DNA of 64,000 bases from Alistipes sp. (GTDB lineage Bacteria > Bacteroidota > Bacteroidia > Bacteroidales > Rikenellaceae), in NCBI GenBank assembly GCA_017937125.1, contig JAGBEH010000010.1, positions 1 through 64,000 on the forward strand. The letters run 5' to 3'. The notes beneath the pieces are model-generated. The model saw nothing but the letters and a program-made list of their open reading frames with translations. It was not told where the DNA came from and ran no database searches. Every line of letters starts with the position of its first letter. The first letter of the stretch is position 1. Below, one piece after another: positions 4,933-36,360 of the stretch. Made by a program: the position numbers and the translations under genes.

Positions 4933-5073
4933 CCCCCCCCCTCCTGCTCCGTTCCCCTGCTCCGTTCCCCTGCTCCGTTCCCCTGCTCCGTTCCCCTGCT
5001 CCGTTCCCCTGCTCCGTTCCCCTGCTCCGTTCCCTCCTGCTCCGTTCCCTCCTGTCCCGTTTTTCCCCCCCCC
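4933..5073. repeat. 13-bp minisatellite flanked by C9 tracts
   Basis: Seven perfect tandem copies of CTGCTCCGTTCCC run from 4944 to 5034. After a TC insertion an eighth copy occupies 5037-5049, followed by a degenerate end. A C9 run lies on each side (4933-4941 and 5065-5073). The array is intergenic between the proS terminator and the promoter of the 5212 gene. There are no unique spacers, so it is not a CRISPR. Such an array is expected to vary in copy number by slippage. Confidence 0.9.
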
Positions 5074-10381: not shown

Positions 10382-10412
10382 CAAAGATAAGTTTTTTTGG
10401 CTGAAGAACAAA
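10382..10412 (-). promoter_or_regulatory. Promoter of the glpT-like gene
   Basis: On the minus strand TTTG (10409-10412), a 19-bp gap and TATCTTTG (10382-10389) match the Bacteroidetes consensus. The -33 box lies in the T-rich tail of the terminator of the upstream TIM-barrel gene. Confidence 0.8.
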
Positions 10413-10441
10413 ACGGGGAGGCGAATGTCGCGCCTCCCCGT
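10403..10441 (-). terminator. Terminator of the susC-led operon
   Basis: On the minus strand ACGGGGAGGCG pairs with CGCCTCCCCGT around a 7-nt loop, followed by TTTTGTTCTTC. It lies 20 bp past the stop of the last gene of the 27.7-10.5 kb cluster. Confidence 0.85.
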
Positions 10442-10460
10442 CGTTATGCCGTCGGATACG

Positions 10461-13145: not shown

Positions 13146-13229
13146 ATCGAATATGTTTTCGTTTTTTCGGGAATCATCGCGGCCGCCCGACTGGCAGCCG
13201 CGATAAATGCCTCGATATTATATCTCACG

Positions 13230-15533
13230 TTACATATAGCGCAACGTAATCGTGCCGAACTGGATGTAGTTGTCGTAGCTGGTGCTCATCTTTATCTCAC
13301 CCGTTTCGCTGTTGTCGTCCCAGCGTATGGGCAGCGACGAGAGTACGTTGTCGTAGGGACGTATGCGTATCATAACCTTCTCCTTGCCGAAGATGTCGGC
13401 GGGGAAGACGAACATATGGTCGGTCATACCGAGCCCAGCGTCGTAGCAGGTGTAATATTTGTTGCCGTTTACGGAGGCATCCCACCACGGCAGCGAGCGC
13501 AGCTTGAAGTAGGGCTGGTTGCGGTGCGAATCGCACACTACGCGGTCCTTGACTTCGTTGTAGGTGGCACCTCCGTCTGTCGAATACTCTACGCACCAGT
13601 GTGCGGGGAATGTCTTGGAGGTGTTGGCGGATACGGTGCCTGCCGAGAACGTGAAGCCCAGACACATATGCGTTCCCGTAACCTCGCTCGTCGAGAACTC
13701 CAGACGTATGCCGTTGATGCCCGTTATCTTGCCGTCCGTCCACTCGTACCAGCCTTTCACGTTGGCACGTATTCCGTATGCCGTGTTCTTGGAGTCGGGA
13801 TATGCCAGACTGAAGGGTATGCCTCTGTCTCCCAAATCCCGTGCGTTGTAGTCGTAGCAGCCCGTTATGGGGTAGTTGCGCAGCGACGCCGTGACGGGCA
13901 TGGCGTGGTTCTCGCAATACAGCTCGGTGTTTTTCGGGAACTTGTCGTAGTCGGGAGGACATATCGATTCGAGACCGTTCGCCTTGTATTTCGCATCGAC
14001 TTTGGCGACGTACTGCCCGAATTTGTAGGCGTACGTATGGCCGTTGTATTCGGCCAGAGTGGTGTAGTTCGATGCCCCGTTGCCCATAGTGAGAATGTCT
14101 TTTTCATCTACGGGACGTATCTGGTAACGGCCTATGTAGTCGCCGTAGCGGTGCACCTCGGAATGGACGATTATGCCGTTGATGTCGCCCGCACCCTGCG
14201 GAACGCCGAGCCCCGAGCGGCGCCACGTGCAGAGCATATTCATCAGCATATATATGCCGTCGCCGTTGCGGTCGAACAGGAGCGATGCCCAGCCGTCGAG
14301 ACGGTTATTGTTGCCCGAAAGGGAGGCGTTCACGGATGACGAGAGCGTATAGTTCTCGTAGACATTGGCGTAACAGCCGTCCTTGAAGAGGAATTCCGTG
14401 TCGGTGAGGGTTACGAACGTATAGATGTCGTCGTCGGTGAGTTCGGCTATGGTTTTCCGCTTCACGGGCAGCTCCGACGCTTCGCCCGCACGTCCCGAGA
14501 GGATGTTCTCGGCCGTAAGACCCGTTACGGTATAGCGGTCGGGATCGCTCTCTCTGACCATCACGGCATCCTTGAGCGAAATCTGCACGAACGAGTAGCG
14601 CGACAGTACGTTGTCCGACGCTTCGTCGAATTGCAGGCGTATGCCGCAGCTGCCGTCGGCGCTCTCGATATACGCCGTGCGGTCGCTGACCGAGGTGTCC
14701 ACCTTGTCGTAGTTCACGCTCGGGTTCAGTTCCATATTCTTGCTTCGGTAGTCGCTTATTATCCAGCCCTCGATATTTACGTCGTCGGTGATTTCCGCTC
14801 CCGCCTCCGTAGCCATGGCACGTGCTTCGGAGAATGTCAGCGTGCGGCCGAAATTGTCGTCCTTGTCGGCTTGGGTGATGAATATGCGCAGGAGGAACTC
14901 TTCCTCCCAGCTGTCCACGTAACGCATTGATATTATCGACGAGCGCGGGTTCGCGGAGTTGTTGTATTGAGGGGTTACACGCAGTACGCCGTCGTTGTAG
15001 ACGGGCTGCGAGAGCCACTCCTCACCGCCGTTCGAGTAGGATATTTCGAAATCTTCGAACGGGATGTTGGTGTCGATGCCGAATTCGGCGGGCTGCTGGC
15101 TGCTGCCCTCGATGGCGCGGAACGGCGCTTCGCACTCGACTGCGGGGACTATGCCTTTCTGTTTTATGTAAACCGTGTCGGCTTTGGCTCCCGAGTCAAG
15201 CCGCAACGCTATTACCGCCATTCGGCGGAACCCCTCGTTGGCCTTGCAGTCGAGGACGATGGTGCCGTCACCCTTCATATGGCGTTTGTCGAGCGAGGCC
15301 CATTCGTCTTCGATTTTGTTGGCGAACTTTATCGAATAGCCGTCGTTGGCATATACCTGAATTTCGAGCGTGCCTCCGTTTTCGTCTATCTCATAGACGT
15401 TCTGCGGCGATACGAGTTCGATTACCTTAGGATATTCGGCATCGTCGATCTCGCACGAGCTGAGACACATTGCTCCCGCAAGGCACAGCATGGCCGTGCC
15501 TGCGGATACGATGTATTTCATAAGATGTTTCAT
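13230..15533 (-). CDS. BACON/DUF5689-type surface lipoprotein
   Basis: 767 residues with a lipobox (CLSSC). Two N-terminal BACON-like repeats (about 35-130 and 135-220) are suggested by 'VYEIDENGGTLEIQVYAN' and the strand ends 'VYIKQKG' and 'IFITQAD'. A DUF5689-type module follows (about 225-480: 'FSEARAM', 'WIISDYRSKNMELNP', 'AYIESADGSCGIRLQF', 'DDDIYTFVTLTDTEFLFKDG'). The C-terminal 280 residues resemble a carbohydrate-binding beta sandwich and match the ends of the other paralogs here ('HWCVEYSTDGGATYNEV', 'FGTITLRYM'). Family knowledge suggests a surface glycan- or host-binding role, which is unproven. It lies 25 bp after the preceding gene's stop. Confidence 0.85.
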   Translation of the reverse strand: MKHLMKYIVSAGTAMLCLAGAMCLSSCEIDDAEYPKVIELVSPQNVYEIDENGGTLEIQVYANDGYSIKFANKIEDEWASLDKRHMKGDGTIVLDCKANEGFRRMAVIALRLDSGAKADTVYIKQKGIVPAVECEAPFRAIEGSSQQPAEFGIDTNIPFEDFEISYSNGGEEWLSQPVYNDGVLRVTPQYNNSANPRSSIISMRYVDSWEEEFLLRIFITQADKDDNFGRTLTFSEARAMATEAGAEITDDVNIEGWIISDYRSKNMELNPSVNYDKVDTSVSDRTAYIESADGSCGIRLQFDEASDNVLSRYSFVQISLKDAVMVRESDPDRYTVTGLTAENILSGRAGEASELPVKRKTIAELTDDDIYTFVTLTDTEFLFKDGCYANVYENYTLSSSVNASLSGNNNRLDGWASLLFDRNGDGIYMLMNMLCTWRRSGLGVPQGAGDINGIIVHSEVHRYGDYIGRYQIRPVDEKDILTMGNGASNYTTLAEYNGHTYAYKFGQYVAKVDAKYKANGLESICPPDYDKFPKNTELYCENHAMPVTASLRNYPITGCYDYNARDLGDRGIPFSLAYPDSKNTAYGIRANVKGWYEWTDGKITGINGIRLEFSTSEVTGTHMCLGFTFSAGTVSANTSKTFPAHWCVEYSTDGGATYNEVKDRVVCDSHRNQPYFKLRSLPWWDASVNGNKYYTCYDAGLGMTDHMFVFPADIFGKEKVMIRIRPYDNVLSSLPIRWDDNSETGEIKMSTSYDNYIQFGTITLRYM

Positions 15534-15558
15534 CTTCGGATGATTGGTCTGTTAAGGA

Positions 15559-16920
15559 TTAGTATGTTATTACCACGTCTTCGAGCATGAATGCACTCGG
15601 GTATTTGAGGGTCGATGTGCAGTCTACGCCCGTATCTATCGAGTCGGTGTATGTCGCGCTCAACCACGCCAGTCGCAGCGATGCGGGCGAGATCTTCACC
15701 ATCACCTTCGCGGCTCCCGCGGCCGATGCGGGCAGCGTGAACTTCTCCTGAATGAAGCCCGAAGGCATTGCCAGCGGCGTGTAGGCCTTTATCGCCTCGC
15801 CCGTTACGGGGTTGGTGAGCGCCTGCGCGGACAGCCAGTTTACGGACGAGCGCATTTCGAACTCCTGAGTGCCGTTCACAGTATTGGTGCAGAGCTCCCA
15901 CGTCGTACCGCCGTCGGTCGAGCACTCCACTTTCCAGTAGAGCGGGAACGAGTGCGTCAGACCTTTGTACATATGTTTGGTCGATACGTTGGCGTTATTC
16001 GTAGTTCCTACCTGCATAGCCGAGGTGGTGAACGATACGGCCATAGTGCCCGTAGCGGTCGTTGCGGGGAACTCGATGACTATACCGTTGGTCTTGCCCG
16101 TCCAGTTGCCGCTCTCGTCCCATTCGTAGTAGCCTGCCACATCGTGGCGGAATACGAGGGCTGTCGATTTCGATTGGCCGTGCATATCGTTGATATTAGT
16201 CGGTTTTCCGTTCGAACCATTTACGGGAGTAGTCGTCGTCGCGAGATTGGTCGTGCCTTTGGTGCCGTTGATGATGCTCGGCTGGTACGAATAGTTGTTC
16301 ATCGTGCCCGCGGTTCCTCCGACAATCGTCGGGTGTCCCGTAGTCGCACCGTTGATTATTGTCAGGTTCGTCGTATATAGCACTGCACTGCCGTCTGTCA
16401 GTCCGTGCGTCGCGTGCATCTTGTTCTGCTGCATCGTCGTGGCATTGCCCTGTTTGAAACCTCCGAGCGCGGCGGCTCCGTTCCAAGCGTACTGCCCGAT
16501 CGATACGGTCTCTTTGGTCAGCGACCAGCGTGCAAGTACGTTCGTCGCACTGGCTTCTTCGGCGGGTATGTCGAACGATGCCTCGTCTATCGGGCGTATC
16601 TGGTATTTGCCCATATCGCCGTAGGCGGGATCTTCGGTGTGGACGATTATGCCGTTCACCTTGCCCACACCCTGCGGGACGTGTTTGCCCGTATCGCTGT
16701 CGCGGCGCCACTCGCATTCCGAATTGATGAGTGCGTATATGGCATTGTTGTCGGCATCCTGCATCATTGTGGCCAATTGGTCACGAATACCGCCGGTCAT
16801 CGTCTCCGTGGTGTAGGTATAGGGCCCGTCCTTTACGACGAACTCCATATCCGTCAGCGTCGTGCAGGTGTAGATGTCCTCGTCGGTGAGGGTCGCGATG
16901 GTGCGCTCCTTGGAGACTAT
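15559..16920 (-). repeat. Long direct repeat, copy 1
   Basis: This part of the fimbrillin-like gene, encoding from 'SKERTIATLTDED' to 'AFMLEDVVITY', is highly similar in DNA and protein to 20117-21475 on the same strand about 4.5 kb away. Differences cluster in a Gly/Asn/Thr-rich loop (about 16190-16480). Confidence 0.85.
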
Positions 16921-18273
16921 TTCGCTTTCGTGTCCCGCCTCTTTGTTCCGAATATGTTTCGGCAGGAGATTGCCTATGTAGTAGCGGTCGGGATTCTCCT
17001 CTTTGAATACTTTCGCTCCGTAGAGGTTGAGTTTCAGCTTGTCGCCGCGGTGCAGCTTATTGTCGAGCACGTTCGTGAAGACTAAACGGAACCCGTACTT
17101 GCCGTCGAGCGTCTGGGCGTATGCAGTCTTCGGGTTTATGGATGTATCGGAGATGTTCCAGCTTTTGTTGGGATTTTTCTCTATATTCGAACATTCTGAG
17201 CCGCTGCCGATTACGATCAACTCGTCGGCGAGATATGCGTCGTAGGCCGTACCCGTTACCTTGCTGTCTCGGCGCAGCTGCTCTGCGGTAGGCAGAACGG
17301 AGCGTTTTGCACTCTCGCCTGCGAGGTCCAAAGCGAACGGACGTATCGTCGCGCGGGCGAACTCGTAACCGCCCGTGTCGGCATTGTCGGGCATATCGAA
17401 GCGGAAACGCCCTTTGTCGGTGAAGATATAGATGTAGCTTTTAGTCGAAACTTCGGCATCCGAGCCGTAGTTGCCCGGCCAAAGGCAGATGTAAAGGCTC
17501 TGTTTGTCGGCGGAGACCGTTATGTCGCCGTCGGCGAACAGGTGGGTCTGATAGGTGGTGTCGCCCGTTGCCACTACTTTGATGGTGTTCTTGACAAGCG
17601 AGAGATCGCCGGTCTCGGTGACGGACGTCAGGTCGAACGGGGCGTATCCAACGCACCAGTTGTCGCCCGAAGTCGCGTTCGACCACTTCGTGCACCAGAA
17701 GCTCGCACCCAAAATCTTGGCACCCTGATATTTCGCATCGGAGCTGAAGACGTTGAGTTTCATAACCGATGCCATCGGGCGGAAGAGCACCGTAGTGCCT
17801 TCGGTAGTCTCGGCTGCCGTCGCAACCGCCACGAGCGGGAAGTTGCGGCCGTCCAAAACATCGGCCTGCGCCTGGCTTTGGTTGTGGGGAACCGTGATTT
17901 TGGCTTTGTCGGCCGCAACACCGTTGTTGTCGGCGGTGTAGGGGTAGTAGGCCATAATCTTGTCGCCTGCCTCGAAGGCTGCGGCGGTGAAGGTTACGAC
18001 CGCCTTGCCTTCGACGTGGCTGACGGTACCTTTGGCGTTGAGGGTGGGTGTCGAGGCGTTGGCGACGTATACGCCGACCTCGTCGCCGTCCGTGAATTTT
18101 ACTATAGTTCCGTCGAGCGTCGTGCGGGTGTCGTCGAATGCCGCCGTGAAGGACATGGCTACTCCTGCGGCCGCATCGTTGCGGAGATTGTCTTCCGTTA
18201 TGTCGGTCGTACAGCCGACGGTAGTCGCGAATGCAGTCGCGACTACGAGTATGGATCGATACAGATTTTTCAT
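15559..18273 (-). CDS. Fimbrillin-like lipoprotein with DUF5689-type C-terminal half
   Basis: 904 residues. The lipoprotein leader has lipobox TVGC. Residues about 35-330 resemble the fimbrillin/Mfa N-terminal domain ('MSFTAAFDDTRTTLDGTIVKFTDGDEVGVY' region, 'DKIMAYYPYTAD', 'ASVMKLNVFSSDAKYQGAKI'). From about 340 there is a DUF5689-type module and then a beta-sandwich end. The last about 450 residues are close to identical to the end of the 20117-22870 product, showing a recent duplication or gene conversion. The fimbrillin domain suggests either assembly into surface fibres or a fibre-like fold on a lipoprotein. A 46-residue ORF lies 23 bp upstream. Confidence 0.87.
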   Translation of the reverse strand: MKNLYRSILVVATAFATTVGCTTDITEDNLRNDAAAGVAMSFTAAFDDTRTTLDGTIVKFTDGDEVGVYVANASTPTLNAKGTVSHVEGKAVVTFTAAAFEAGDKIMAYYPYTADNNGVAADKAKITVPHNQSQAQADVLDGRNFPLVAVATAAETTEGTTVLFRPMASVMKLNVFSSDAKYQGAKILGASFWCTKWSNATSGDNWCVGYAPFDLTSVTETGDLSLVKNTIKVVATGDTTYQTHLFADGDITVSADKQSLYICLWPGNYGSDAEVSTKSYIYIFTDKGRFRFDMPDNADTGGYEFARATIRPFALDLAGESAKRSVLPTAEQLRRDSKVTGTAYDAYLADELIVIGSGSECSNIEKNPNKSWNISDTSINPKTAYAQTLDGKYGFRLVFTNVLDNKLHRGDKLKLNLYGAKVFKEENPDRYYIGNLLPKHIRNKEAGHESEIVSKERTIATLTDEDIYTCTTLTDMEFVVKDGPYTYTTETMTGGIRDQLATMMQDADNNAIYALINSECEWRRDSDTGKHVPQGVGKVNGIIVHTEDPAYGDMGKYQIRPIDEASFDIPAEEASATNVLARWSLTKETVSIGQYAWNGAAALGGFKQGNATTMQQNKMHATHGLTDGSAVLYTTNLTIINGATTGHPTIVGGTAGTMNNYSYQPSIINGTKGTTNLATTTTPVNGSNGKPTNINDMHGQSKSTALVFRHDVAGYYEWDESGNWTGKTNGIVIEFPATTATGTMAVSFTTSAMQVGTTNNANVSTKHMYKGLTHSFPLYWKVECSTDGGTTWELCTNTVNGTQEFEMRSSVNWLSAQALTNPVTGEAIKAYTPLAMPSGFIQEKFTLPASAAGAAKVMVKISPASLRLAWLSATYTDSIDTGVDCTSTLKYPSAFMLEDVVITY

Positions 18274-18296
18274 TGTCGTCAGTGTTTTAAGTCGTT

Positions 18297-18437
18297 TTAC
18301 AATGTCTCCTCTCCGTATTCTCCCAAATGTTCCGTGTTCTCGTTGGGGTCGTACGAGACGGCGAAGCCCGCTTCCGAGCGTACTTCGGCGATTCTGATTG
18401 TCGGGGTTGCGTAAAGTCCCGAAGTTGTGGTTTTCAT
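18297..18437 (-). CDS. 46-residue ORF upstream of the fimbrillin-like gene
   Basis: The ORF starts MKTTTSGLYATPTIRIAEVR, continues 'SEAGFAVSYDPNENTEHLGE' and ends YGEETL. It fills the gap between two long genes of the cluster, starting 17 bp after the 18455 stop and ending 23 bp before the 15559-18273 start. It has no signal peptide or membrane segment. From memory it resembles short Bacteroidales proteins that accompany fimbrillin-like lipoprotein genes and carry an 'EVRSEAGFA' type motif; I cannot test this here. Function unknown. Confidence 0.65.
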   Translation of the reverse strand: MKTTTSGLYATPTIRIAEVRSEAGFAVSYDPNENTEHLGEYGEETL

Positions 18438-18454
18438 ATGATAAGTGTTTTTGT

Positions 18455-20107
18455 TTATTTGTAACATACGTATATCGACCCGAATCTGATTATGGTCTGT
18501 TGCTTGATATTCTTGTTTACCACCTTGTTGTCCATTATGACATCCTTTTCGGGATTGGCGCGTATCTGAGAGAGTTTCGTACTCGCGGGACTTATGGCTA
18601 TGAGCACCTTATCCCTGCCGAACATCGATTGCGGCAGGGCATACATATGCTGTTGCAGACCCATTCCGCAGTCGTAACCCGTGGGCAGCGGCTTGGGGTT
18701 GCCCGAGCCTTCGACGACTTTCGGCCAGAACGGTACGGGGCGCAGAACGGTCTTGTCGCTGCCCGTGGCGCTGTCCTTGAGCAGCGTCCAGTGTACGCCG
18801 TCGTACGAACACTCCACCTTCCATTCGGCGGGGTAGTTCCACGAACCGTTGGCGTCCTGATTGCCTGCGCCGAAATCGAAGCATAGAGCCATATCCGTCC
18901 CTTTGATTTTCGCGGTCGAGAACTCTATGAGGAACGAATTCACTCCGTTCGCCTTGCCCGCCGCGTCGAACGTGTACCAGTCGGGAGTCGGGGCATTGAA
19001 GAACAGCGCCCCCTTGTAGACGGCACCGCGCTGGTAGGTGTCCAAGGCGTTGAAATCGTTGGTGACCATTATGTACGAGTTGCTCGTGGTCCACATAAAT
19101 CCGCGGCCGACATCGGGCAGGATGCGGTCGCCGCGCACCTCCTTCTTGTTCTCGATGCCCGTTTTAGTCCCCATATACTCGAAGTCGAGCGAGGCGTCGG
19201 TGTTATTTTCGAGGAACCAGCCTATGAGCACCTTGTACGGCGATTTGGCTTTCTTGTCGGCGACGATGTCGTTGCCGTCTACGGGACGTATCGAGTAGCG
19301 TCCCATATTCCCGCCGTAACGGCGCATCTCGGTGTGGACGACGATACCGCTCAAAGCGACCTGCCCCTGCGGGATGCGCTTGCCCGTGCGGCGCCATTGG
19401 CACAGCGTATTGACGGGCATATATATCGCGTCGTTGCGCGAGTCGCGAACGAGGCTCGCCCAGCCGTCCATACGGCTCGTGACCTTGTAGTATTTGGGAT
19501 CTTTCTCGTTGTCGGGATGAAGCTCCGACTTGATGCAGTACGGCTCCCAGATATTGGTGTACGATCCGTCCTTGATAACGAACTCGACCTCCTTCAGCGT
19601 GATGAACGTGTAGACGTCCTCGTCCGTAAGTTCGCCGATGAACTTCTGTTTGGGTACGACAGCCGAGGCGTCGCCTTTTACAGCATCGACGATGTTTTCG
19701 GCCGTCAGGCCGTCTATCGTGTAACGCTCGGGGTCGTTCTCGCGTACTATCTTCGTGCCGCGCAGGTTTATCTTCACCTTGCCGTAACGGTGCAGTTCGT
19801 TGTCCTCGACGCTGGCGAATTTCAGACGGAAACCGTAGCGGCCGTCGGCGCTCTGGATATACGAGGTCTTGTCGTTCGGCGTCAGGTCTACCTGCGATTG
19901 CGATACGTTTACGTTCAGCTCCATATTCTTGCTGTCGCAGTCGCCGATAACGATGCCTTCGATTATGAGGTCGTTTTCTACGGCGACGGGCGCATCGGCC
20001 GATGCCATAGCGCGAACCTTGTCGAAGCTCTGCGGCGTTTGCGCAACGGCGGCGGCGAAGAAAAACGTCGCCGCTGCCGTGAAGTGCAATATTCTGATAA
20101 GTTTCAT
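18455..20107 (-). CDS. Secreted DUF5689-type protein
   Basis: 550 residues. A cleavable signal peptide (FTAAATFFFAAAVAQ) has no lipobox, so the product is periplasmic or secreted. Residues about 25-290 form a DUF5689-type module with the blocks shared by all five paralogs: 'DLIIEGIVIGDCDSKNMELN', 'SYIQSADGRYGFRLKF', 'DPERYTIDGLTAENIV', 'TDEDVYTFITLKEVEFVIKDG' and 'MGRYSIRPVDGNDI'. A beta-rich C-terminal half ends 'IIRFGSIYVCYK'. Its stop is 9 bp... its start lies 9 bp after the stop of the preceding 20117-22870 gene, consistent with one transcript. The role is probably surface or periplasmic glycan binding (inference). Confidence 0.85.
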   Translation of the reverse strand: MKLIRILHFTAAATFFFAAAVAQTPQSFDKVRAMASADAPVAVENDLIIEGIVIGDCDSKNMELNVNVSQSQVDLTPNDKTSYIQSADGRYGFRLKFASVEDNELHRYGKVKINLRGTKIVRENDPERYTIDGLTAENIVDAVKGDASAVVPKQKFIGELTDEDVYTFITLKEVEFVIKDGSYTNIWEPYCIKSELHPDNEKDPKYYKVTSRMDGWASLVRDSRNDAIYMPVNTLCQWRRTGKRIPQGQVALSGIVVHTEMRRYGGNMGRYSIRPVDGNDIVADKKAKSPYKVLIGWFLENNTDASLDFEYMGTKTGIENKKEVRGDRILPDVGRGFMWTTSNSYIMVTNDFNALDTYQRGAVYKGALFFNAPTPDWYTFDAAGKANGVNSFLIEFSTAKIKGTDMALCFDFGAGNQDANGSWNYPAEWKVECSYDGVHWTLLKDSATGSDKTVLRPVPFWPKVVEGSGNPKPLPTGYDCGMGLQQHMYALPQSMFGRDKVLIAISPASTKLSQIRANPEKDVIMDNKVVNKNIKQQTIIRFGSIYVCYK

Positions 20108-20116
20108 ATTACGACC

Positions 20117-21475
20117 TTATTTATAGGATATTACCACGTCTTCGAGCATAAATGCGCTCGGATATTTGAGTGTCGGGGTGCAGTCGATGCCCGTGTCTAT
20201 CGACGAGGTGTACGACGAACCGAACCACGCCAGCCGCAGCGATGCGGGCGAGATTTTCACCATCACCTTCGCGGCTCCCGCGGCCGATGCTGGCAGCGTG
20301 AACTTCTCCTGAATGAAGCCCGAGGGCATCGCCAGCGGCGTGTAGACGTTGAGCGCCGAGCTCGTAACGGGGTTTGTCAGGCTTTGCGGGTTCATATAAT
20401 TGACTGTCGAACGCATTTCGAACTGCTTCGAGCCGTTCACCGTATTGGTGCATTTCGTCCACGTCGAACCGCCGTCGGTCGAGCACTCCACTTTCCAGTA
20501 GAGCGGGAACGAGTGCGTCAGACCTTTGTACATATACTTGGTCGATTTGTTGGCGTTATTCGTCGTTCCTACCTGCATTGCCGACGTGGTGAACGATACG
20601 GCGAGAGTACCCGTTGCCGATGTCGCGGGGAATTCCAAAACGATACCCGTAGTGCCGCCAGTCCAGTTGCCGCCGCTCCATTCGTAGTAGCTTGCCACAT
20701 CGTGGCGGAATATGAGGGCGGTCGATTTCGACTGGCCGTGCATATCGTTGTGCCCGTTCGTTGCCGTGGCGAGATTGTTCGTGCCTTTGGTGCCGTTGAT
20801 GATGCCCGGCTGGTACGAATAGTTGTTCATCGTATTCGCGTCTTTTCCTCCCTCAATCTTCGGGTGCCCCGTAGTCGCACCGTTGATTATCGTCAGGTTC
20901 GTGGAGTAGAGCACCGCCGAACCGTCGGTCAGTCCGTGCGTCGCGTGCATCTTGTTCTGCTGCATCGTCGTGGCGTTGCCTATCTTGTATCCGCCGTTGT
21001 TCACGGTCGCCGCTCCGCCGTTCCAAGCGTACTGCCCGATAGATACGGTCTCTTTGGTCAGCGACCAGCGTGCCAGTACGTTCGTCGCCGAACTCTCTTC
21101 GGCGGGTATGTCGAACGATGCCTCGTCTATCGGGCGGATCTGGTATTTGCCCATATCGCCGTAGGCGGGATCCTCGGTGTGGACGATTATGCCGTTCACC
21201 TTACCTACGCCCTGCGGGACGTGTTTTCCCGTTGCGCTGTCGCGGCGCCACGCGCATTTCGAGTTGATGAGTGCGTATATCGCGTTGTTGTCCGCATCCT
21301 GCATCATCGTCGCCAGATTGTCGCGGAATTGATTGGATGCCGTGCATCCGAGCATCGTCTCCGTGGTGTAGGTATAGGGCCCGTCCTTTACGACGAACTC
21401 CATATCCGTCAGCGTCGTGCAGGTGTAGACGTCCTCGTCGGTAAGGGTCGCGATGGTGCGCTCCTTGGAGACTAT
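20117..21475 (-). repeat. Long direct repeat, copy 2
   Basis: Encodes the same module as 15559-16920 ('SKERTIATLTDED' to 'AFMLEDVVISYK') with a few substitutions and a variable Gly/Asn/Thr loop around 20745-21010. Homologous recombination between the copies could delete or rearrange the intervening 4.5 kb. Confidence 0.85.
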
Positions 21476-22870
21476 GTCTGCGGGCGAACCTGCCGCTTCG
21501 ACTTCGATGTCGTCAGCCTTTATGCCGCTCAACGTGTAACGTTTCGGGGAATCCTCCATAGTGAGGGTCTTGCCGTCGAGATAGAGACGTATCTTGTCGC
21601 CGCGATGCAGCGTGTTGTCGGCCGCAGTTGCGAATTGCAGGCGGAAACCGTATTTTCCGTCCTCGCTTTGGGCGTATCCCGTTTTCGCCGTTGCCGTGAA
21701 GTCGATTCTGTTCACCGACGTGTTGGGGTTCTTCTCCGTATTGAGGTCGTCCCTGTCGCTGGTGACGCGTACTGTTATGTAGTCGCGGTAATCTTCGTCG
21801 CTCGGGTAGGTTTGAGACCCTGCCGATGTCTGCATAGCGCGCAATGCTTCGGCTGTAACCGTCCTCGGCATTACCTCGCCGCGTTGCAGGAATTTCAGGA
21901 CACCCTCCGTTACCGTTCCGTTGAGGTCGGTATGCGAGACGGTTATGGTCGCCGAACGTTTGATGCCGTCGTTCGCCGCACAGTCGAATGTTACGGCACC
22001 CTCCTCGACGGCGATGTTCGAGATATAATCTTTCGCGTCGCCTTCATATGCGGTCGATACCGTCATTGCGCCGTAGAGCGCAGAGATGTTCGACGCGAAG
22101 GAGGCGGCGATGCCTTGATGTTCGTCTTTCGAAACGACCACGTCCGCGAAGTCGATGTACGCCTTGCGGTTGCTTTGGTCTATGACGGTTTCGGCGCGGT
22201 ATTCCTTGCCCTCGGCATCCGTCGTGCTCATCGCTATCGACGCCTTACGCGCCTTGTCGCCCGCATTTTCCGCAATCTTGAAAGATACGTATGCGCTTTC
22301 GGGAGCATCTTCGCTGCTGTCGGTTGCAGCGCGCGAGGGATGGTACTGCAAATCGGAGATCCAGCCGCCTTCACCCTCGTCGTAGAGCGCGACGGGCTTC
22401 AGCTCTTCGAGCAGCGTCTCCGGAAGGTTGGTGTCGAGTGTCAGACGCCCCTCATAGGCGCCTGCGGCGAACTGCAACGAGTTTTTATCGAATGCGAGTT
22501 TGGGATTTGTAAGTCCCGGGCGCTGTGTGAGGCGGATGATCTGCTCCTTGCCGTTGCCGCGCAGGATAACGTTCACCATACGCGACAAGCCCGTGTTTTC
22601 CGAGTAAGAGAAGCGTATGAAAGCGGTGCCTTTGCCCGATGTGCGGTCCAAAGCGCCCCACGAGATCTCCTCCGAGAGCGAAGCCTCCCATTTCCCGTCG
22701 CAGTAGCAGCCGAAAGTTATCCGTCCCTCGTCGGCATCGAAAATAAGGGCGTTGGAATCTACGGCCATATCGAATTTCTCCTCGAAATCGCGGTTGCATC
22801 CGCCCGCTGCGAGTGCCGCTGCGAGCGCAACGGCTGCGAGAAACCTTTTTGTTTTATATACGGTGTTCAT
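20117..22870 (-). CDS. Multi-BACON/DUF5689-type lipoprotein
   Basis: 917 residues from ATG 22870; an in-frame ATG at 22882 is also possible. The lipobox is AAGGC. Three to four N-terminal beta-sandwich repeats of about 80-90 residues (to about residue 350) look like BACON domains ('GKWEASLSEEISWGAL', 'VNVILRGNGKEQIIRLTQRPG', 'LKFLQRGEVMP'). A DUF5689-type module follows (about 355-600), then a C-terminal sandwich nearly identical to that of the fimbrillin-like gene. It begins 4-16 bp after the susD stop, the position usually occupied in such loci by a surface glycan-binding protein, which is my best guess for its role. Confidence 0.85.
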   Translation of the reverse strand: MNTVYKTKRFLAAVALAAALAAGGCNRDFEEKFDMAVDSNALIFDADEGRITFGCYCDGKWEASLSEEISWGALDRTSGKGTAFIRFSYSENTGLSRMVNVILRGNGKEQIIRLTQRPGLTNPKLAFDKNSLQFAAGAYEGRLTLDTNLPETLLEELKPVALYDEGEGGWISDLQYHPSRAATDSSEDAPESAYVSFKIAENAGDKARKASIAMSTTDAEGKEYRAETVIDQSNRKAYIDFADVVVSKDEHQGIAASFASNISALYGAMTVSTAYEGDAKDYISNIAVEEGAVTFDCAANDGIKRSATITVSHTDLNGTVTEGVLKFLQRGEVMPRTVTAEALRAMQTSAGSQTYPSDEDYRDYITVRVTSDRDDLNTEKNPNTSVNRIDFTATAKTGYAQSEDGKYGFRLQFATAADNTLHRGDKIRLYLDGKTLTMEDSPKRYTLSGIKADDIEVEAAGSPADIVSKERTIATLTDEDVYTCTTLTDMEFVVKDGPYTYTTETMLGCTASNQFRDNLATMMQDADNNAIYALINSKCAWRRDSATGKHVPQGVGKVNGIIVHTEDPAYGDMGKYQIRPIDEASFDIPAEESSATNVLARWSLTKETVSIGQYAWNGGAATVNNGGYKIGNATTMQQNKMHATHGLTDGSAVLYSTNLTIINGATTGHPKIEGGKDANTMNNYSYQPGIINGTKGTNNLATATNGHNDMHGQSKSTALIFRHDVASYYEWSGGNWTGGTTGIVLEFPATSATGTLAVSFTTSAMQVGTTNNANKSTKYMYKGLTHSFPLYWKVECSTDGGSTWTKCTNTVNGSKQFEMRSTVNYMNPQSLTNPVTSSALNVYTPLAMPSGFIQEKFTLPASAAGAAKVMVKISPASLRLAWFGSSYTSSIDTGIDCTPTLKYPSAFMLEDVVISYK

Positions 22871-22886
22871 AGTGTTGTTCATTGGG

Positions 22887-24536
22887 TTATAAGCCTGCGG
22901 CCTTGTATTCGTCATTTGTCAGCACACCGCCGGACAATGCGCACTGCGTGTCGGGTATGGGGTAGTAGCGATGGCAGGGGCGCATCTTCTCCTTGAGGCG
23001 GGTGTAATTGGTGTAATTGTATGTCTGCTCGTACCATATGCCCCAGCGTACGAGGTCGAACTTGCGTTGGAATTCGCCGCCGAGCTCTTTCGCGCGCTCG
23101 TTGCGGATCTCCACCGTCAGGTCTTCGAAGCCCGAGAAACTCGTGTAGAGGTCGATGCCCGCACGCGCCTTTATCATATTGAGGTAGCGCATCGATTCGA
23201 CATCGTTCTCCAGCTGGCAGTAGCATTCCGAGAGCATAAGCACCGCGTCGGCATAGCGGAACAGGTGATAGTTGTTGCCGTCGGCCGTATTGACTATGTC
23301 GGGACACCAGAACTGCGGGCCCGGCCACACTACGCCGTACTGCCGTACAAACGTGAAGGTGTCGCCCGTTTCGAGGTTGCCCAGACCGAGCTTGTAGACC
23401 ACGCGGCGATCGACCTTCTTCCCGCGGATTTCGAATGTCTTGAGAGCGTCGAGGTCAATCTTCGTGTAGTAGCGGTTTTGGTCTTTCCACAATTCATCGT
23501 CGTAGGTGAGCGGCAGGGGATTGAACAACCCGCCCTCTTGGGTGCTGGCCGTCTCCTCCTTCTTGCCGTTGTTCGCAGGGCGGAATATGCCGTAGTAGTT
23601 GTTGCCGCGCAGCGAGTTCCATCCGGGGATGGAGGTGCCGTATTCGCTTAAATATACGCCGTTGAAGATGCCGTCGCCTTCGTGGCGGGGCATCATTATG
23701 CAGGCTACGTTGCCGTTGTACTTTACGCCCGTGTTCGACCATTCGTGCTGAAGTTCGAATATCGATTCATCGACATTCTTGTAGCGCCACATATTCTTCT
23801 CCCAAGGGTAGCGCTCTTCGGTCAGCTCGCCGTAGATCTCCTCGAGCTTGTGCAGCGGGATGAGGGCGCTTTCGAAATCCTCGTTCCACATAGCGAATTT
23901 CGCCATCAGCATATATCCGAATGCCGCTCCGGCACGGTTTTCCTTGACCTCGTTTGCACGCACCTGTTCGAGATACTGCTGGTGCATATCGATTTGGTCG
24001 TAGAGCGTTTGCCGAGTGTCGTAGGCGCTCATACGGGGCAAGCGGCGCAGCCTCTCCTGCGTCTCGATGCAGTCCACACGCTCGGTGTAGAACGGGACGT
24101 CGCCGAAGAAGCAGGTAAGTATGTAGTAGTAGAATGCGCGCATAACGACGGCCTCGGCCACCATAGACATCTTGGCCGTCTCGTCGATGTCGGCGGCGGA
24201 GATGCAATCGACGCATTCGTTGCAGTACATAACGCCCTTGTACGCCTGCGTCCAGACGTTTTTGCCCATCTGCGGTTTGGCGGGCGTGACGTCGAGAACG
24301 GCGTCTACCGTACTCGATGTGCAGTACCATATGTCCGTACAGCCCTCGACTGCCATCATAAAGTTGGCGGTGAAAATCGAGTTGAGCGGTATGTAGCACG
24401 AATTCAGTGCCGCGCGGCATTGTGTTTCGTTCTTGTAAAACGACAGGTGGTTTACGAACGATGTCGGCTTCTCTTCGAGGTTGCACGATACGAAAAGCGC
24501 GGCGACCAGTGATAGCAACAGATATTTGGTTTTCAT
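22887..24536 (-). CDS. RagB/SusD family outer membrane lipoprotein
   Basis: 549 residues. The lipoprotein leader ends in VSC (cysteine 18). The body has the SusD-like helical TPR scaffold: an early 'FYKNETQCRAALNSCYIPLNSIF' region, 'EAVVMRAFYYYILTCFFGDVPFYTERVD' (the conserved RA-x-AY-x-L-x-x-xYGDVP family block) and a C-terminal 'NMIKARAGIDLY...EIRNERAKELGGEFQRKFDLVRWG' block. SusD proteins cap the SusC barrel at the surface and bind the ligand for TonB-driven uptake. Its start lies 27 bp after the susC stop. Ligand unknown. Confidence 0.95.
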   Translation of the reverse strand: MKTKYLLLSLVAALFVSCNLEEKPTSFVNHLSFYKNETQCRAALNSCYIPLNSIFTANFMMAVEGCTDIWYCTSSTVDAVLDVTPAKPQMGKNVWTQAYKGVMYCNECVDCISAADIDETAKMSMVAEAVVMRAFYYYILTCFFGDVPFYTERVDCIETQERLRRLPRMSAYDTRQTLYDQIDMHQQYLEQVRANEVKENRAGAAFGYMLMAKFAMWNEDFESALIPLHKLEEIYGELTEERYPWEKNMWRYKNVDESIFELQHEWSNTGVKYNGNVACIMMPRHEGDGIFNGVYLSEYGTSIPGWNSLRGNNYYGIFRPANNGKKEETASTQEGGLFNPLPLTYDDELWKDQNRYYTKIDLDALKTFEIRGKKVDRRVVYKLGLGNLETGDTFTFVRQYGVVWPGPQFWCPDIVNTADGNNYHLFRYADAVLMLSECYCQLENDVESMRYLNMIKARAGIDLYTSFSGFEDLTVEIRNERAKELGGEFQRKFDLVRWGIWYEQTYNYTNYTRLKEKMRPCHRYYPIPDTQCALSGGVLTNDEYKAAGL

Positions 24537-24563
24537 TTAATGTTTCGTTTTAAGAGTTCGACA

Positions 24564-27500
24564 TCAGTATCTAAGTTGCAGGCTGAAGACGAATGTTCTG
24601 GAACGCGGGTAGGCGCCCAGGTCCACGCGTCGCAGCGTCGAACCGCCGCTTTCGGTCGAGACGTCGGGGTCGAAGCCGTTGTAACGGCTCCAGAGCCACA
24701 GGTTCTCGCCGCTGAGGCTGAGAGTTATGTCGCGCAGCGCCTTGGTCTTCTTGCGAAGGTCGAACGTGTAGGATATGTTCACGCTCTTCAGGCGCAGGTA
24801 CGAGGCGTCGTGGATTTGCAGGTCGCTCGGCACGAGAATGTCGTCCGTGCCCGCGCGGGGCAGATTCGAGTCGGGATTGCGCACGGGGTGCCACGCATTG
24901 AGCATATACCTGTACTGGTTGGTGGCGTAACCGCCGCCCATCGCCAGCTCGGAATAGTTGTATATTTTGCCTCCGAGCGAGTACGAGAAGTAAACGCCTA
25001 TTTTCAGCTGCCCGATGTGGAACGTGTTCTGCATACCGCCGTACAGCACGGGGTCGGAGTTGCCCATATAGACGAGGTCCTCCTCCGACAGGATGCCGTC
25101 GTTGTTGGTATCCACATATTTGGGATAACCGCGCATCTGGCTGGGGTTGGTGTTGGTGCTCGACGAGACGTACGAATGCGTGACGTTGTTGCGCTCGTAC
25201 TGCTCGGCCGTTTTCCATACGCCCGCGTACTTGAAACCCCAAAGCGAGTTGAGCGGGTAGCCCGATTTGTAACCGTACATCATATAGTTGGTGTTGCCGC
25301 CGCTCTGGAGGGCGCTGACGTACTCCTCCTGGCCGATGTCGTCCACCATCTGCTTGTTGTGCGAGAGGGTGAGGCTCGTGGTCCACTGGAATTTGGGTTT
25401 TACGATGTTGCGGCTTTCGATGGTGACCTCTATACCCTTGTTCGAGGTTTGGCCGATATTGGTATAACGGCTCGTATAACCCGTGACGTGAGGGGTTTGG
25501 AGCGTCAGCAGCAGGTCGTTGGTCTTGGACCAGTAGCCTTCGACCGTGAAACTCAGACGGTTGTCGAATGCCGCGAAATCCAGGGCGACGTTGTAGAGCG
25601 TGGTTTTCTCCCACGTCAGGTTGGGATTTTCGTTGCGCGAGGGGTAGAATGCGGCCGATTGCGATCCGTCGAACAGATAGCCGTTCGTCGTCGTGCCGTA
25701 GGCTTCGAGCGAGCGGTATGCCGCGATGGCATCGTTACCCGTACGGCCTGCGCTCAAACGTATCGCCAGTTCGTCGAGCCAGCGTGCCGATTTCATAAAC
25801 CGCTCGTTGCGTATGTTCCATTTTATGGCGCCCGACGGGAAGAATCCCCACTTGTGGTTGGCGGCGAAACTCGACGAGGCATCGGCGCGGGCGGTAAACG
25901 TGATATAGTAGCGTTGCTTATAATTATAGTTCGCGCGCGCGAGGACCGATTCGCGTACGACCTTGCTCGATTGGGTCGAGGCGGTATAGTTGTCCTTGCT
26001 CATAATGCCGTTCATATTGTTCCACTTCAGGTCGTCGGTGACCAAACCTACGGCCTTCAGCGAGAAACGGTTGATTATCTCGCTCGAAGCGGTGAAACCG
26101 CCCATTATGTCGAAATAGTGTCCCGAACGGAACTTGCGGGAATAGGTTATGGTGTTCTCGCTCGTCAGACGGCGTGCATCGCCTTCGTAACGGTAGGCGT
26201 CCGAACCTTCGCCTTCGGTCTTTTTCGGCAGGTCGCTGGGCCAGAACTGGTAGTCGTGGCGCTGGTAGACCATATACGAGTTCTGGCTGCGTATGCGCAG
26301 GCCTTTCACGGGCGTGAAGGTGAATATCAGCACGTCGGTGTTGGTCATCTGCTCGCTGAAGTTGTCGATCATATCGGTGCAGACGCGCGGCGTGTTGAAT
26401 TTCGTGCCGTTTTCGTAGATGGGGTTGGTGTCGTCGTAGATGCCGATCATCGGAGAGAGGTAAATGGCTCCGCCCCAGATATTGGTTCCGCCGATAGCCG
26501 CCTTGTTGGCGTCGTTGCGACGGAACGTATAGCTGCCCTTGAAGCCTACTTCGAACCACTTCGCGAATTTGTGGTTGATGTTGAAACGCCCCGTTATGCG
26601 GCGGAAACCGCTGCTGCGGATGATACCCGGAGTGTCGTTGTAACCGAGGGCGGCATAGTAGTTCGTGTTTTTGTTGCGGCCGCTTACCGAGAGGTTGTAG
26701 TTCTGGTAGATGGTCGTGCGGGTGATGGCGTCGAGCCAGTCGGTGCCTTTGCCCCACTCGTTAGGGTCGCGGACGATCGGACGGCTGTCGTTGAAGTTGC
26801 TGCCGAAATATGAACGGTCGTTTTGGTAGCGGGCGAATTCCCGTGCATCCATAAGGTCGAGCTTGCGTGCTATGGACGAGACGCCGATATCGGCCTTGGC
26901 CGTCACCGTGGGACGCGATGTGGTGCCGCTGCCCTTTTTGGTCGTCACTATAACGACGCCGTTCGAACCGCGCGAACCGTATATCGCCGTCGATGAAGCG
27001 TCCTTGAGCACCGAGACCGATTCGATGTCGGCAGAGTTGATGTCCGACAGGTCGCTGACGGCATCTATCACGCCGTCCACGACTATGAGCGGCTCGTTGG
27101 ATGCCGTGATCGAGCGTGTACCGCGGATACGTATCGAGGTCGTGGCGCTGGGGTCTCCCGAGGTGGACATAATGTCTACGCCCGCGATGCGCCCCTGCAA
27201 GGCTTGGTCTACGGAGGTTACGGGCGAGTCCTTGATGTCGGACATCTTGACGTTGGCCACGGAGCCCGTAAGGTCGGTTTTCTTTACCTGGCCGTAGCCT
27301 ATGACGACCACTTCGTTGATCGCCAGTGCCGGATCGGGCGCGAGTTCTATGTCGAGAACGGTGCGTTTGCCGATTACGACCTGTTGGGTGAGATAACCCA
27401 GATAGGAGAATTCGAGAATGCCCTTTTCGGCCTCTACCGAGATTTGGAAAGCACCTTGGGCATCTGTCGTGGTGCCTCGTTTGCCGTCGGGGGTCGAAAC

Positions 27501-27675
27501 CGTCGCTCCGATGAGCGGGTTGCCTTCGGCATCCTTTACGAAACCTTTGACGGTAACGTTCTTTTGCGCCGTTTGCGAAAAAACGCTCAGGGGGCTAAGC
27601 GTAAGCAGGAGAATCAGAATCCCCCCCCCCGAATTTTCGGGCTAAATGGCGCGTAGATAGTAGATTTGCAGTCAT
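24564..27675 (-). CDS. SusC/RagA TonB-dependent receptor, out of frame at a G10 run
   Basis: Outer membrane TonB-dependent transporter, partner of SusD. The ATG at 27675 opens MTANLLSTRHLARKFGGG; the next bases are a G10 run (27621-27630). With 10 G the frame meets a stop after about 26 codons. With 9 G it continues ILILLLTLSPLSVFSQ (signal peptide end), a carboxypeptidase-regulatory-like domain ('VKGFVKDAEGNPLIGATV'), a TonB-box-like stretch, the plug ('VVVIGYGQVKKTDLTGSV') and a barrel ending 'FVFSLQLRY', about 1036 residues. No ATG, GTG or TTG in frame replaces the lost start before the GTG at 27311, which would delete the signal peptide. It is therefore either a phase-OFF allele or a sequence error in the run. 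Confidence 0.9.
27621..27630 (-). repeat. G10 homopolymer in the susC signal-peptide codons
   Basis: Ten consecutive G on the coding strand, immediately after the codons for ARKF. Nine (or twelve) G would restore the reading frame. This is the usual architecture of translational phase variation by slipped-strand mispairing. Confidence 0.85.
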
Positions 27676-27716
27676 TTATGTGAAGTTTATGGATGTTGGA
27701 GCATATTGCCTCGAAA

Positions 27717-27746
27717 CAAAGATAGTAAAAAATTCCCCCCCCCAAA
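27717..27746 (-). promoter_or_regulatory. susC promoter with a G9 run in its spacer
   Basis: On the minus strand TTTG (27743-27746) and TATCTTTG (27717-27724) are separated by 18 bp, versus 19-20 bp at the other good promoters in this window. The spacer begins with a G run (9 in total counting the last base of the -33 box, 27735-27743). Gain of one or two G would bring the spacing to 19-20. Transcription would start near 27710, about 35 nt before ATG 27675. Confidence 0.75.
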
Positions 27747-27887
27747 TATTTTGCGCGAAAAAATGTACAAAGAAAACAAATAAATTTTCGTGCTTGTCAT
27801 ATGTTTTTGTCGCAAAGCTTTTGCATTTTATTTCCTTTGTGCGCGTAGAAATGTCCGAATCGCCTTCACAAAGGTATCCGAAACGAA

Positions 27888-27921
27888 ACGGCGCCCGACG
27901 ATCTAAACCGTCGGGCGCCGT
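27888..27921 (-). terminator. Terminator of the galactose/GDPD operon
   Basis: ACGGCGCCCGACG pairs with CGTCGGGCGCCGT around an 8-nt loop, followed on the minus strand by TTTCGTTTCGG. It lies 23 bp after the galK stop and isolates the susC promoter from the upstream operon. Confidence 0.85.
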
Positions 27922-27943
27922 TGGTGGCAGATATATGCGGAGG

Positions 27944-29080
27944 TTATTCCAGCCGGCGCGAACCGTCGGAGATAACTACCTGATATACTTTGGGTTCGTG
28001 GCCGAACTTCTCTGCGAATTTCGCTTTGGCCGTAGCTATGAAGTTGTCGTACAGCTCCTCTTTCACAAGGTTGATGGTGCAGCCTCCGAAGCCGCCGCCC
28101 ATAATGCGCGAGCCGCTTACGCCGCACTCTTCGGCAACGGTGGCGAGGAAATCCAGCTCTATGCAGCTTACCTCGTAGTCCTTCGACATTCCCCAATGGG
28201 TCTCGTACATACGTTTGCCGACCGTCTCGTAGTCGCCTTTCTGCAATGCGTCGCAGACGTCGAGCACGCGGCGCTCCTCGCCGATGACGTAGCGTGCGCG
28301 ACGGTAGTCCTCGTCCGAAATCTTGTCCTTGACGGCGTCTAACTGCTCCATAGTAGCGCCGCGCAGGAACTCCTGCCCGAGCATCTTGGCAACGCGTTCG
28401 CACGATGCGCGGCGGTCATTGTAGGGCGAACCTACCAGTTCGTGCTTGACCACCGAGTCCAACAGTACGAGTTTGTAGCCTTTCGGGTCGAAGGGGAAGT
28501 ATTCGAACTCCATCGAGCGGCAGTCGAGACGCATAAGGCAGCCTTTTTTGCCGAAAACCGATGCGAACTGGTCCATAATGCCGCAGTTCACGCCGCAGTA
28601 GTTGTGCTCTGTGGACTGTCCTACGCGTGCGAGTTCGAACTTGTCGATGTTGCCGTCGAACAGTTCGTTCAGCGCGAACGCATATGTGCTTTCGAGCGCT
28701 GCCGACGACGACATTCCCGCTCCGAGAGGCACGTCTCCCGAGAAGGCCGTGTCGAATCCTTTCACCTTGACTCCGCGCTTCTGCATCTCGCGGCAGACGC
28801 CGAAGATGTAGTGCGCCCAGCTCTGCGCAGGCTTGTCCTCCTCGTTCAGACCGAACTCGGCGCTCTGGTCGAGGTCGATTGCGAATGCGCGCACCTTGTC
28901 GGTGCCGTTGGGCCTGATTGCCGCTACGATACCCTTGTCCACGGCCCCGGGGAATACGAATCCTCCGTTATAGTCCGTGTGCTCGCCGATAAGGTTGATA
29001 CGGCCCGGCGAAGCATACATTATCGCTCCCGCACCGAACAGCTCTTCGAACTTCGATGCTACTTTCTCTTTCATTTCCAT
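27944..29080 (-). CDS. galK: Galactokinase
   Basis: 378-residue GHMP kinase that phosphorylates alpha-D-galactose to galactose-1-phosphate in the cytoplasm, the first step of the Leloir pathway. The galactokinase signature is present near the N-terminus ('GRINLIGEHTDYNGGFVFP'), as are the ATP-binding GHMP motif 'GDVPLGAGMSSSAALES' and the C-terminal 'SRIMGGGFGGCTINLV' motif. Length is normal. It starts 4 bp after the GDPD stop and is the last gene of its operon, next to galM. An alternative start at 29074 removes two residues. Confidence 0.97.
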   Translation of the reverse strand: MEMKEKVASKFEELFGAGAIMYASPGRINLIGEHTDYNGGFVFPGAVDKGIVAAIRPNGTDKVRAFAIDLDQSAEFGLNEEDKPAQSWAHYIFGVCREMQKRGVKVKGFDTAFSGDVPLGAGMSSSAALESTYAFALNELFDGNIDKFELARVGQSTEHNYCGVNCGIMDQFASVFGKKGCLMRLDCRSMEFEYFPFDPKGYKLVLLDSVVKHELVGSPYNDRRASCERVAKMLGQEFLRGATMEQLDAVKDKISDEDYRRARYVIGEERRVLDVCDALQKGDYETVGKRMYETHWGMSKDYEVSCIELDFLATVAEECGVSGSRIMGGGFGGCTINLVKEELYDNFIATAKAKFAEKFGHEPKVYQVVISDGSRRLE

Positions 29081-36110: not shown

Positions 36111-36130
36111 TTGCATATAGTTCCCTTTTG

Positions 36131-36360
36131 TATATTTGGCTTGCGTCTTACATACTCCCGCTCGGCAATACTCAAATAAATTTGGCATTGCTCTCGCTTA
36201 TTCGTATATTTGGCTTCGCCTTATATACTCTCGCTCGGCAAAATCGCAAACAAGTTTGCTTTTGCACTCGCTTATTCGTATATTTGGCTTCGCCTTATAT
36301 ACTCCCGCTCGGCAAAATCGCAAACAAGTTTGCTTTTGCACTCGCTTATTCGTATATTTG
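36131..36360 (+). repeat. 74-bp tandem repeat carrying repeated promoters
   Basis: Four TATATTTG boxes recur at exactly 74-bp spacing (36131, 36205, 36279, 36353). The two downstream units are nearly identical; the first is diverged. Each unit contains GCTTCGCC, TATACTC(C/T)CGCTCGGCAA, an inverted GCAAAC-AA-GTTTGC and CTCGCTTATTCG before the box. The array ends 93 bp before ugd. Confidence 0.93.
36329..36360 (+). promoter_or_regulatory. Proximal promoter of the ugd operon (last of an array)
   Basis: TTTG (36329-36332), 20 bp, TATATTTG (36353-36360). The same -33/20 bp/-7 arrangement occurs at 36255-36286 and 36181-36212, so three near-consensus promoters point at the operon. The fourth -7 box (36131-36138) lacks a good -33. 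Confidence 0.85.

Follow-up and report, generated by a model that had tools for sequence, protein, structure and literature searches.

A run of ten G in the signal-peptide codons of a susC gene of Alistipes sp. puts that gene out of frame as assembled. Is such a gene broken, wrongly assembled, or switchable? An earlier note, made from the sequence alone, had read the run as a device for translational phase variation. We analyzed the whole stretch of 64,000 nucleotides around it (here called the window), the rest of the genome, and related genomes; loci and genomes are given L and G numbers where they must be told apart. The main features at the start of the gene are as follows.

27743-27746 (-): TTTG, a -33-like element whose last G is the first G of the G9 run
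27735-27743 (-): G9 run in the predicted promoter spacer of susC
27717-27724 (-): TATCTTTG, a predicted sigma-ABfr-type -7 element, spaced 18 bases from the TTG
27621-27630 (-): G10 run within the signal-peptide n-region of SusC; gene out of frame as assembled
27595-27675 (-): 26-codon frame, from ATG to TAG, of the assembled G10 state
24564-27620 (-): SusC/RagA TonB-linked outer membrane receptor, 1018 amino acids after the run, starting at the hydrophobic segment of the signal peptide

The reading frames at this start are as the earlier note had described them. Fifteen codons separate ATG 27675 (-) from the ten G at 27630-27621 (-), and the frame of this ATG reads MTANLLSTRHLARKFGGGDSDSPAYA before it ends at TAG 27597-27595, matching the predicted stop about 26 codons in. 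The frame behind the run (27620-24564, minus strand) starts ILILLLTLSPLSVFSQ and continues for 1018 codons without a stop. With the 15 codons and three Gly added, this agrees with the protein of about 1036 residues that the removal of one G had been expected to give. The first ATG, GTG, or TTG in the open frame is GTG 27311; no ordinary alternative start therefore keeps the signal peptide, which had also been claimed. The G10 run is not a chance occurrence. Overlapping G8 words were found nine times in the window compared to 1.42 expected, and none of 100 dinucleotide shuffles reached nine. The lengths of G/C runs in the window fell from 264 runs of 4 to 33 of 5 and 1 of 6, with none of 7 or 8, followed by three runs of 9 and one of 10.

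A second run, absent from the earlier note, lies upstream of the gene. Between 27746 and 27717 the minus strand reads TTTG, eight more G, AATTTTTTAC, and TATCTTTG. The promoter elements of Bacteroides are given as TTTG near -33 and TAnnTTTG at -7 in PMC7366714, and both are present here as sequence matches. We accordingly predict that 27746-27717 is a sigma-ABfr-type promoter of susC. The pattern TTTG-N16-19-TAnnTTTG matched four times in the window (0.34 expected), a number reached in 0 of 100 shuffles. The G9 run occupies nearly half of the promoter spacer, and the assembled spacing of 18 is the commonest among the 68 promoter sites described below.

The product of the open frame belongs to the SusC/RagA family. 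It scored 816 bits against TIGR04056 (cutoff, 368) and 65.8 against TIGR04057 (cutoff, 46.2), contains the Pfam domains Plug and CarbopepD_reg_2, has a SusC homolog (8aa4_A) as its top match among solved structures, and is encoded next to a SusD partner. Over the 1018 codons without a stop, dN/dS was 0.083 relative to L173 (G053), 0.087 relative to L174 (G036), and 0.087 relative to L175 (G112), orthologues with 72 to 74% amino acid identity; these ratios are rough, with dS above 2, yet far from neutral. The open frame of susC is thus under purifying selection (dN/dS of about 0.08). The locus has three features of poly-G contingency loci: a homopolymer longer than composition predicts, its position early in the reading frame or between promoter elements, where a single base counts, and a gene that is otherwise open and selected. 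In the susC paralogue L172 (G000 C6), there was no run of at least 7.

The genes behind susC, and the hairpin in front of it, are the following.

22887-24536 (-): SusD-family protein, 27 nt after susC; Pfam SusD_RagB and SusD-like_3, with solved SusD homologues
20117-22915 (-): BACON/DUF5689 protein, overlapping the end of susD
18455-20107 (-): DUF5689 protein, its transcript probably shared with the preceding genes
15559-18273 (-): protein with a DUF5689 match below the cutoff, preceded by a 181-nt gap without TAnnTTTG
13230-15533 (-): DUF5689 protein (Pfam)
10461-13145 (-): protein with a xylose-isomerase-like TIM-barrel domain (Pfam)
27887-27922 (-): hairpin after the galactokinase gene, with perfect arms of 14 nt

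From 10389 to 25755 there is no TAnnTTTG on the minus strand, and the genes behind susC may therefore depend on its promoter. Since the 181-nt gap contains no such element, the gene at 15559-18273 is perhaps part of the same transcript. No glycoside hydrolase was found among the ten window proteins scanned with Pfam. Upstream of susC lies a galactokinase gene (27944-29080). The region of the hairpin behind it (27875-27935) folds at -36.9 kcal/mol (z, -6.8), and the hairpin is possibly a terminator that separates susC from the galactokinase gene; a terminator scan of 27600-28000 called none, the hairpin included.

Next, we looked at the same gene in the genus. Of 180 genus genomes searched, 132 had a match, and we examined 30 returned loci plus 10 named loci (L088 is the same record as L054, and L083 apparently the same as L062). 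All 40 had a protein match at the susC start. A G/C run of at least 7 within 400 bases of the signal-peptide codon was present in 11 loci and absent from 29. The closest of the 40 over the whole protein, at 72 to 74%, were L174/L088 (G036), L173 (G053), L087 (Alistipes montrealensis), and L175 (G112). The earlier note had suggested comparing the tract in related genomes, and the answer was divided. G036 (L054 = L088) and G053 (L059) carry G9 at the same signal-peptide place, in frame, as AGG GGG GGG GAA amid codons that differ from those of the window, and neither has a G run in the promoter spacer. In G112, however, the residues RGGE are encoded by AGG GGT GGA GAA, so that the coding run is interrupted with the protein unchanged, and the promoter spacer has a G8 run. 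L087, which is 72.6% identical over 1004 residues, has neither run, and its start is a different one, with an STN-type domain. The two layers therefore occur separately between species, in the coding sequence only (G036 and G053) or in the promoter only (G112); in the window they are present together. L054/L088 and L059 also have C8/C10 runs some 190 bases before the signal-peptide codon, perhaps the promoter run of a gene on the opposite strand.

Long G runs are not restricted to susC. The genome contains 192, 128, and 66 overlapping words of 7, 8, and 9 G, respectively, and its runs of exactly 7, 8, 9, 10, and 11 number 2, 6, 47, 8, and 1. Among the 56 runs of nine or more, 47 are thus exactly nine and 9 are longer. 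The codon-usage score was weak for these runs, and we sorted them by reading frame and Pfam match instead, a procedure that favors the detection of in-frame cases. Seventeen runs lay in an open frame with a Pfam match, 3 in open frames with a lipoprotein-like start, 4 in genes out of frame, and 5 in promoter spacers, leaving 27 unassigned. The coding cases are listed here, beginning with the 17 that matched Pfam.

L003, L009, L038: SusC-type receptors with an open frame across the run
L012, L036: ECF sigma factors, run in frame
L004: LicD, run in frame
L020: nucleotidyltransferase, run in frame
L021: polysaccharide-biosynthesis protein, run in frame
L029, L031: glycosyltransferases, run in frame
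L034: sulfatase-family protein, run in frame
L044, first of L047: fimbrillin-like proteins, run in frame
L050: OmpA/DUF3575 protein, run in frame
L015: PspC, run in frame
L039: DUF1573, run in frame
L024: BACON match below the cutoff, run in frame
L013, L027, L049: lipoprotein-like starts (by eye), open frames with a run
Window susC: out of frame at G10
L045: lipoprotein-like gene without a Pfam match, out of frame at G10
L032: OmpA/DUF3575 gene, out of frame at G9
L048: sulfatase-family gene, out of frame at G9

Of the 27 runs outside the sorted classes, 21 are exactly nine, so selection on the reading frame alone does not explain the peak at this length. How many long runs there are is in itself no argument, since a rough hand estimate from base composition alone gave the same order as the 56 observed. 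The case therefore relies on how run lengths are distributed and on the dinucleotide shuffles made for the window. Loss of mismatch repair was rejected as the cause, as the genome has MutS and MutL genes, neither of them interrupted by a stop.

Some of these loci resemble each other. The minus-strand ECF sigma genes L012 (about 1501-1509) and L036 (about 1480-1488) have an in-frame G9 at a similar place, in sigma region 2; if these genes switch, their regulons would switch too. L018, L037, and L046 are short frames with G9/G10 about ten codons after the ATG and a similar pattern with GFA and S, possibly a small-protein family judged by eye. The L032 gene has G9 at both 1483-1491 and 1733-1741, one upstream and one soon after the signal peptide. 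C9 runs were also seen in the SusC-type receptors L003, L073, and L081, between the STN-like and CarboxypepD parts and, by eye, apparently at the same place.

The preference for nine extends through the genus. In 101 genus genomes (this one included), we counted 2537 runs of exactly nine versus 735 of exactly seven; nine was the more frequent in 90 genomes, equal in 5, and less frequent in 6. In 118 other genera of the order, represented by one genome each, the counts were 353 of nine versus 4437 of seven, with nine commoner in only one (G187) and equal in two. G187, with 10 runs of exactly nine and 4 of exactly seven, is perhaps an independent case. A poly-G artifact of two-color sequencing was rejected by reasoning alone: the flanks are conserved on both sides of the runs, and in G011 the count is 72 for exactly nine and 2 for exactly seven.

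The promoter layer also recurs. The word G7-N2-18-TAnnTTTG had 6 distinct sites in this genome and 0 in the backward control, and its G8 version was found in 91 of 180 genus genomes versus 31 of 180 in the backward control (our own count of the table). We compiled a promoter set from 60 stretches in 34 genomes (from the matches listed), the six places in this genome, and one in G112, giving 68 sites with 62 distinct flanks. All sites had been chosen by the promoter word, so only the upstream element tests them independently. Between the nearest TTG and TAnn, the spacing was 18 in 34 sites and 19 in 12; when the upstream bases were shuffled (1000 rounds), spacings of 18 and 19 together averaged 3.8 sites, with a maximum of 11. 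Run lengths were 9 in 51 sites, 8 in 8, 10 in 8, and 11 in 1. Behind 58 of the 68 promoters there is a reading frame, and most of these begin like a signal peptide or lipoprotein, as judged by eye.

Like promoters in this set sometimes differ in run length. L147 (G9) and L149 (G10) share the nearest 38 upstream bases and 90% of 249 downstream bases. L161 (G10) and L162 (G8) come from one genome (G055) and have flanks equal at 133/133 and 126/128 positions, a comparison to be read with caution as both lie near contig ends. These two are copies of one promoter and signal-peptide start and may be a duplicated cassette. The flanks of L120 (G11) and L129 (G9) are less alike (69 to 76%). Between L151 or L139 and L152, and between L142 and L148, one promoter has 9 G and the other 8, yet both have a spacing of 18; because the spacing is kept, these pairs look like substitution at the run edge rather than slippage. 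Both members carry G9 in the pairs L133/L134, L136/L143, L125/L130, L019/L137, and L150/L153.

Taken together, these results make it probable that susC is a two-layer slipped-strand contingency locus built on poly-G. Replication slippage would lengthen or shorten the signal-peptide run one base at a time, moving susC in or out of frame and turning its translation on or off. Slippage in the promoter G9 run would shift the spacing between the -33 and -7 elements and so alter transcription of susC, the susD-like gene, and the DUF5689 genes. SusC would then be made only by cells in which both layers permit it. As the coding run is out of frame, SusC would be off in the assembled consensus, where the promoter has the commonest spacing (18). 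Three points are inferred: variation of run length within the strain, control of promoter strength by the spacing, and switching of the SusC protein. Translational phase variation, as the earlier note proposed, stands as the best reading in view of the open selected gene, the G9 in two of the four closest relatives examined, and the many runs in the genome. The proposal was incomplete, however, as it missed the promoter run and did not cover the genus-wide excess. Weighed against a two-layer switch are L087, the lack of a promoter run in G036 and G053, the pairs that keep their spacing, and the presence of MutS and MutL; L087 and these pairs led us to lower our confidence slightly. In Neisseria, switching at mononucleotide tracts rises 100- to 1000-fold when repair is defective (PMC3639595).

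It is possible, though we lean against it, that the tenth G is an assembly error and the actual consensus reads in frame, with or without switching at the run. Nine is the commonest length here (47/56 runs of nine or more), the in-frame relatives carry G9, and the genome, in 12 contigs at 90% completeness, may be metagenome derived; that 9 of the 56 runs exceed nine would also fit errors of one extra base. Yet the run itself, the like runs of relatives, and the promoter run would all remain. GGG accounts for 112 of the 897 Gly codons in 17 window open reading frames, so three in succession are unlikely by chance, and L032 and L048 are out of frame at G9 in the same genome. Such an error would alter the state of the susC locus, not its nature. 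The broken frame could alternatively mark a plain pseudogene in which the frameshift is fixed, but 1018 codons without a stop, a dN/dS of about 0.08 (rough, with dS >2), and the open state of susD and the genes that follow make this very improbable.

The remaining explanations concern how the runs act. Polymerase or ribosome slippage could occur on a homopolymer of ten bases near the start codon, so that some G10 messages yield full-length SusC without a change in DNA and the run serves as a tuner, not a switch. We consider this unlikely, as it leaves the promoter runs and the length differences between like promoters unexplained. The promoter runs could instead be a conserved binding site for a regulator, which would suit the run length of 9 in 51/68 sites, the recurrent neighbors, and the spacing kept in some pairs despite a run change. 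Lengths of 8 to 11 nevertheless occur, also between like promoters, and the G9 excess extends to coding sequence and other places; a binding site seems to us improbable as well. DNA inversion, the known route for SusC/SusD in Bacteroides fragilis, can be dismissed almost entirely: in 27500-28000, the only inverted repeat is the hairpin at 27887-27922, and no inverted repeats flank the susC promoter. An invertible promoter was rejected on this ground.

Poly-G phase variation is well known, and the two-layer poly-G switch proposed for susC can be set beside several systems. In porA of Neisseria meningitidis, a poly-G tract lies between -35 and -10, and PorA-negative variants have arisen through changes in a 7A tract near the start of the gene's reading frame (PMC3639595). 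Like porA, susC would have two layers on one outer membrane protein gene. Unlike porA, it belongs to another phylum, has a promoter of the -33 TTTG/-7 TAnnTTTG type, carries poly-G in both layers, and encodes a nutrient receptor in a commensal genus; we do not claim homology. Campylobacter jejuni NCTC11168 has 29 loci with poly-G/C tracts of seven or more (PMC4965091). Alistipes shares the many poly-G/C runs but is a member of the gut Bacteroidales with MutS and MutL genes, and has many runs in promoter spacers; the genes affected include SusC-type, fimbrillin-like, and ECF sigma genes. In Bacteroides fragilis, SusC/SusD phase variation by DNA inversion was reportedly described by Nakayama-Imaohji in 2009. 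Inversion is also the route described for SusC/SusD in Bacteroidales in two sources (PMC12632263 and PMC11868660), and the words "homopolymer" and "slipped" are absent from the main text of the former, a 2025 review of gut Bacteroidales. Among the titles and abstract openings listed from one open-access library, none dealt with homopolymer phase variation in Alistipes. The Alistipes locus thus resembles the B. fragilis invertase system in being a candidate for SusC/SusD phase variation in Bacteroidales, whereas the mechanism is site-specific inversion in B. fragilis and, as we propose, homopolymer slippage in Alistipes. New here are the other phylum and promoter type, a nutrient receptor with poly-G in two layers, and the genus-wide peak at nine, for which reasons we regard susC as a known principle in a new form.

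Whether the genus Alistipes as a whole has a large poly-G phasome, with runs held near nine by a length balance in coding, promoter, and other places and with receptors gated by two serial switches that are gained and lost separately, is to us an even bet. This genome and its genus offer a test case from gut commensals. If the proposal is true, slippage would make individual cells differ in their nutrient receptors, fimbrillin-like proteins, glycan enzymes, and ECF sigma factors. Annotation may record such slippage states as frameshifted genes, and strain comparisons based on single nucleotide polymorphisms would miss them.

The window has other repetitive sequence. At 4933-5073 on the minus strand, a 13-base tandem repeat with about 8 to 9 copies (4939-5061) has a G9 run on either side, another possibly unstable place. 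A 74-base tandem repeat with 3.1 copies lies at 36130-36360, with TATATTTG at 36131, 36205, 36279, and 36353.
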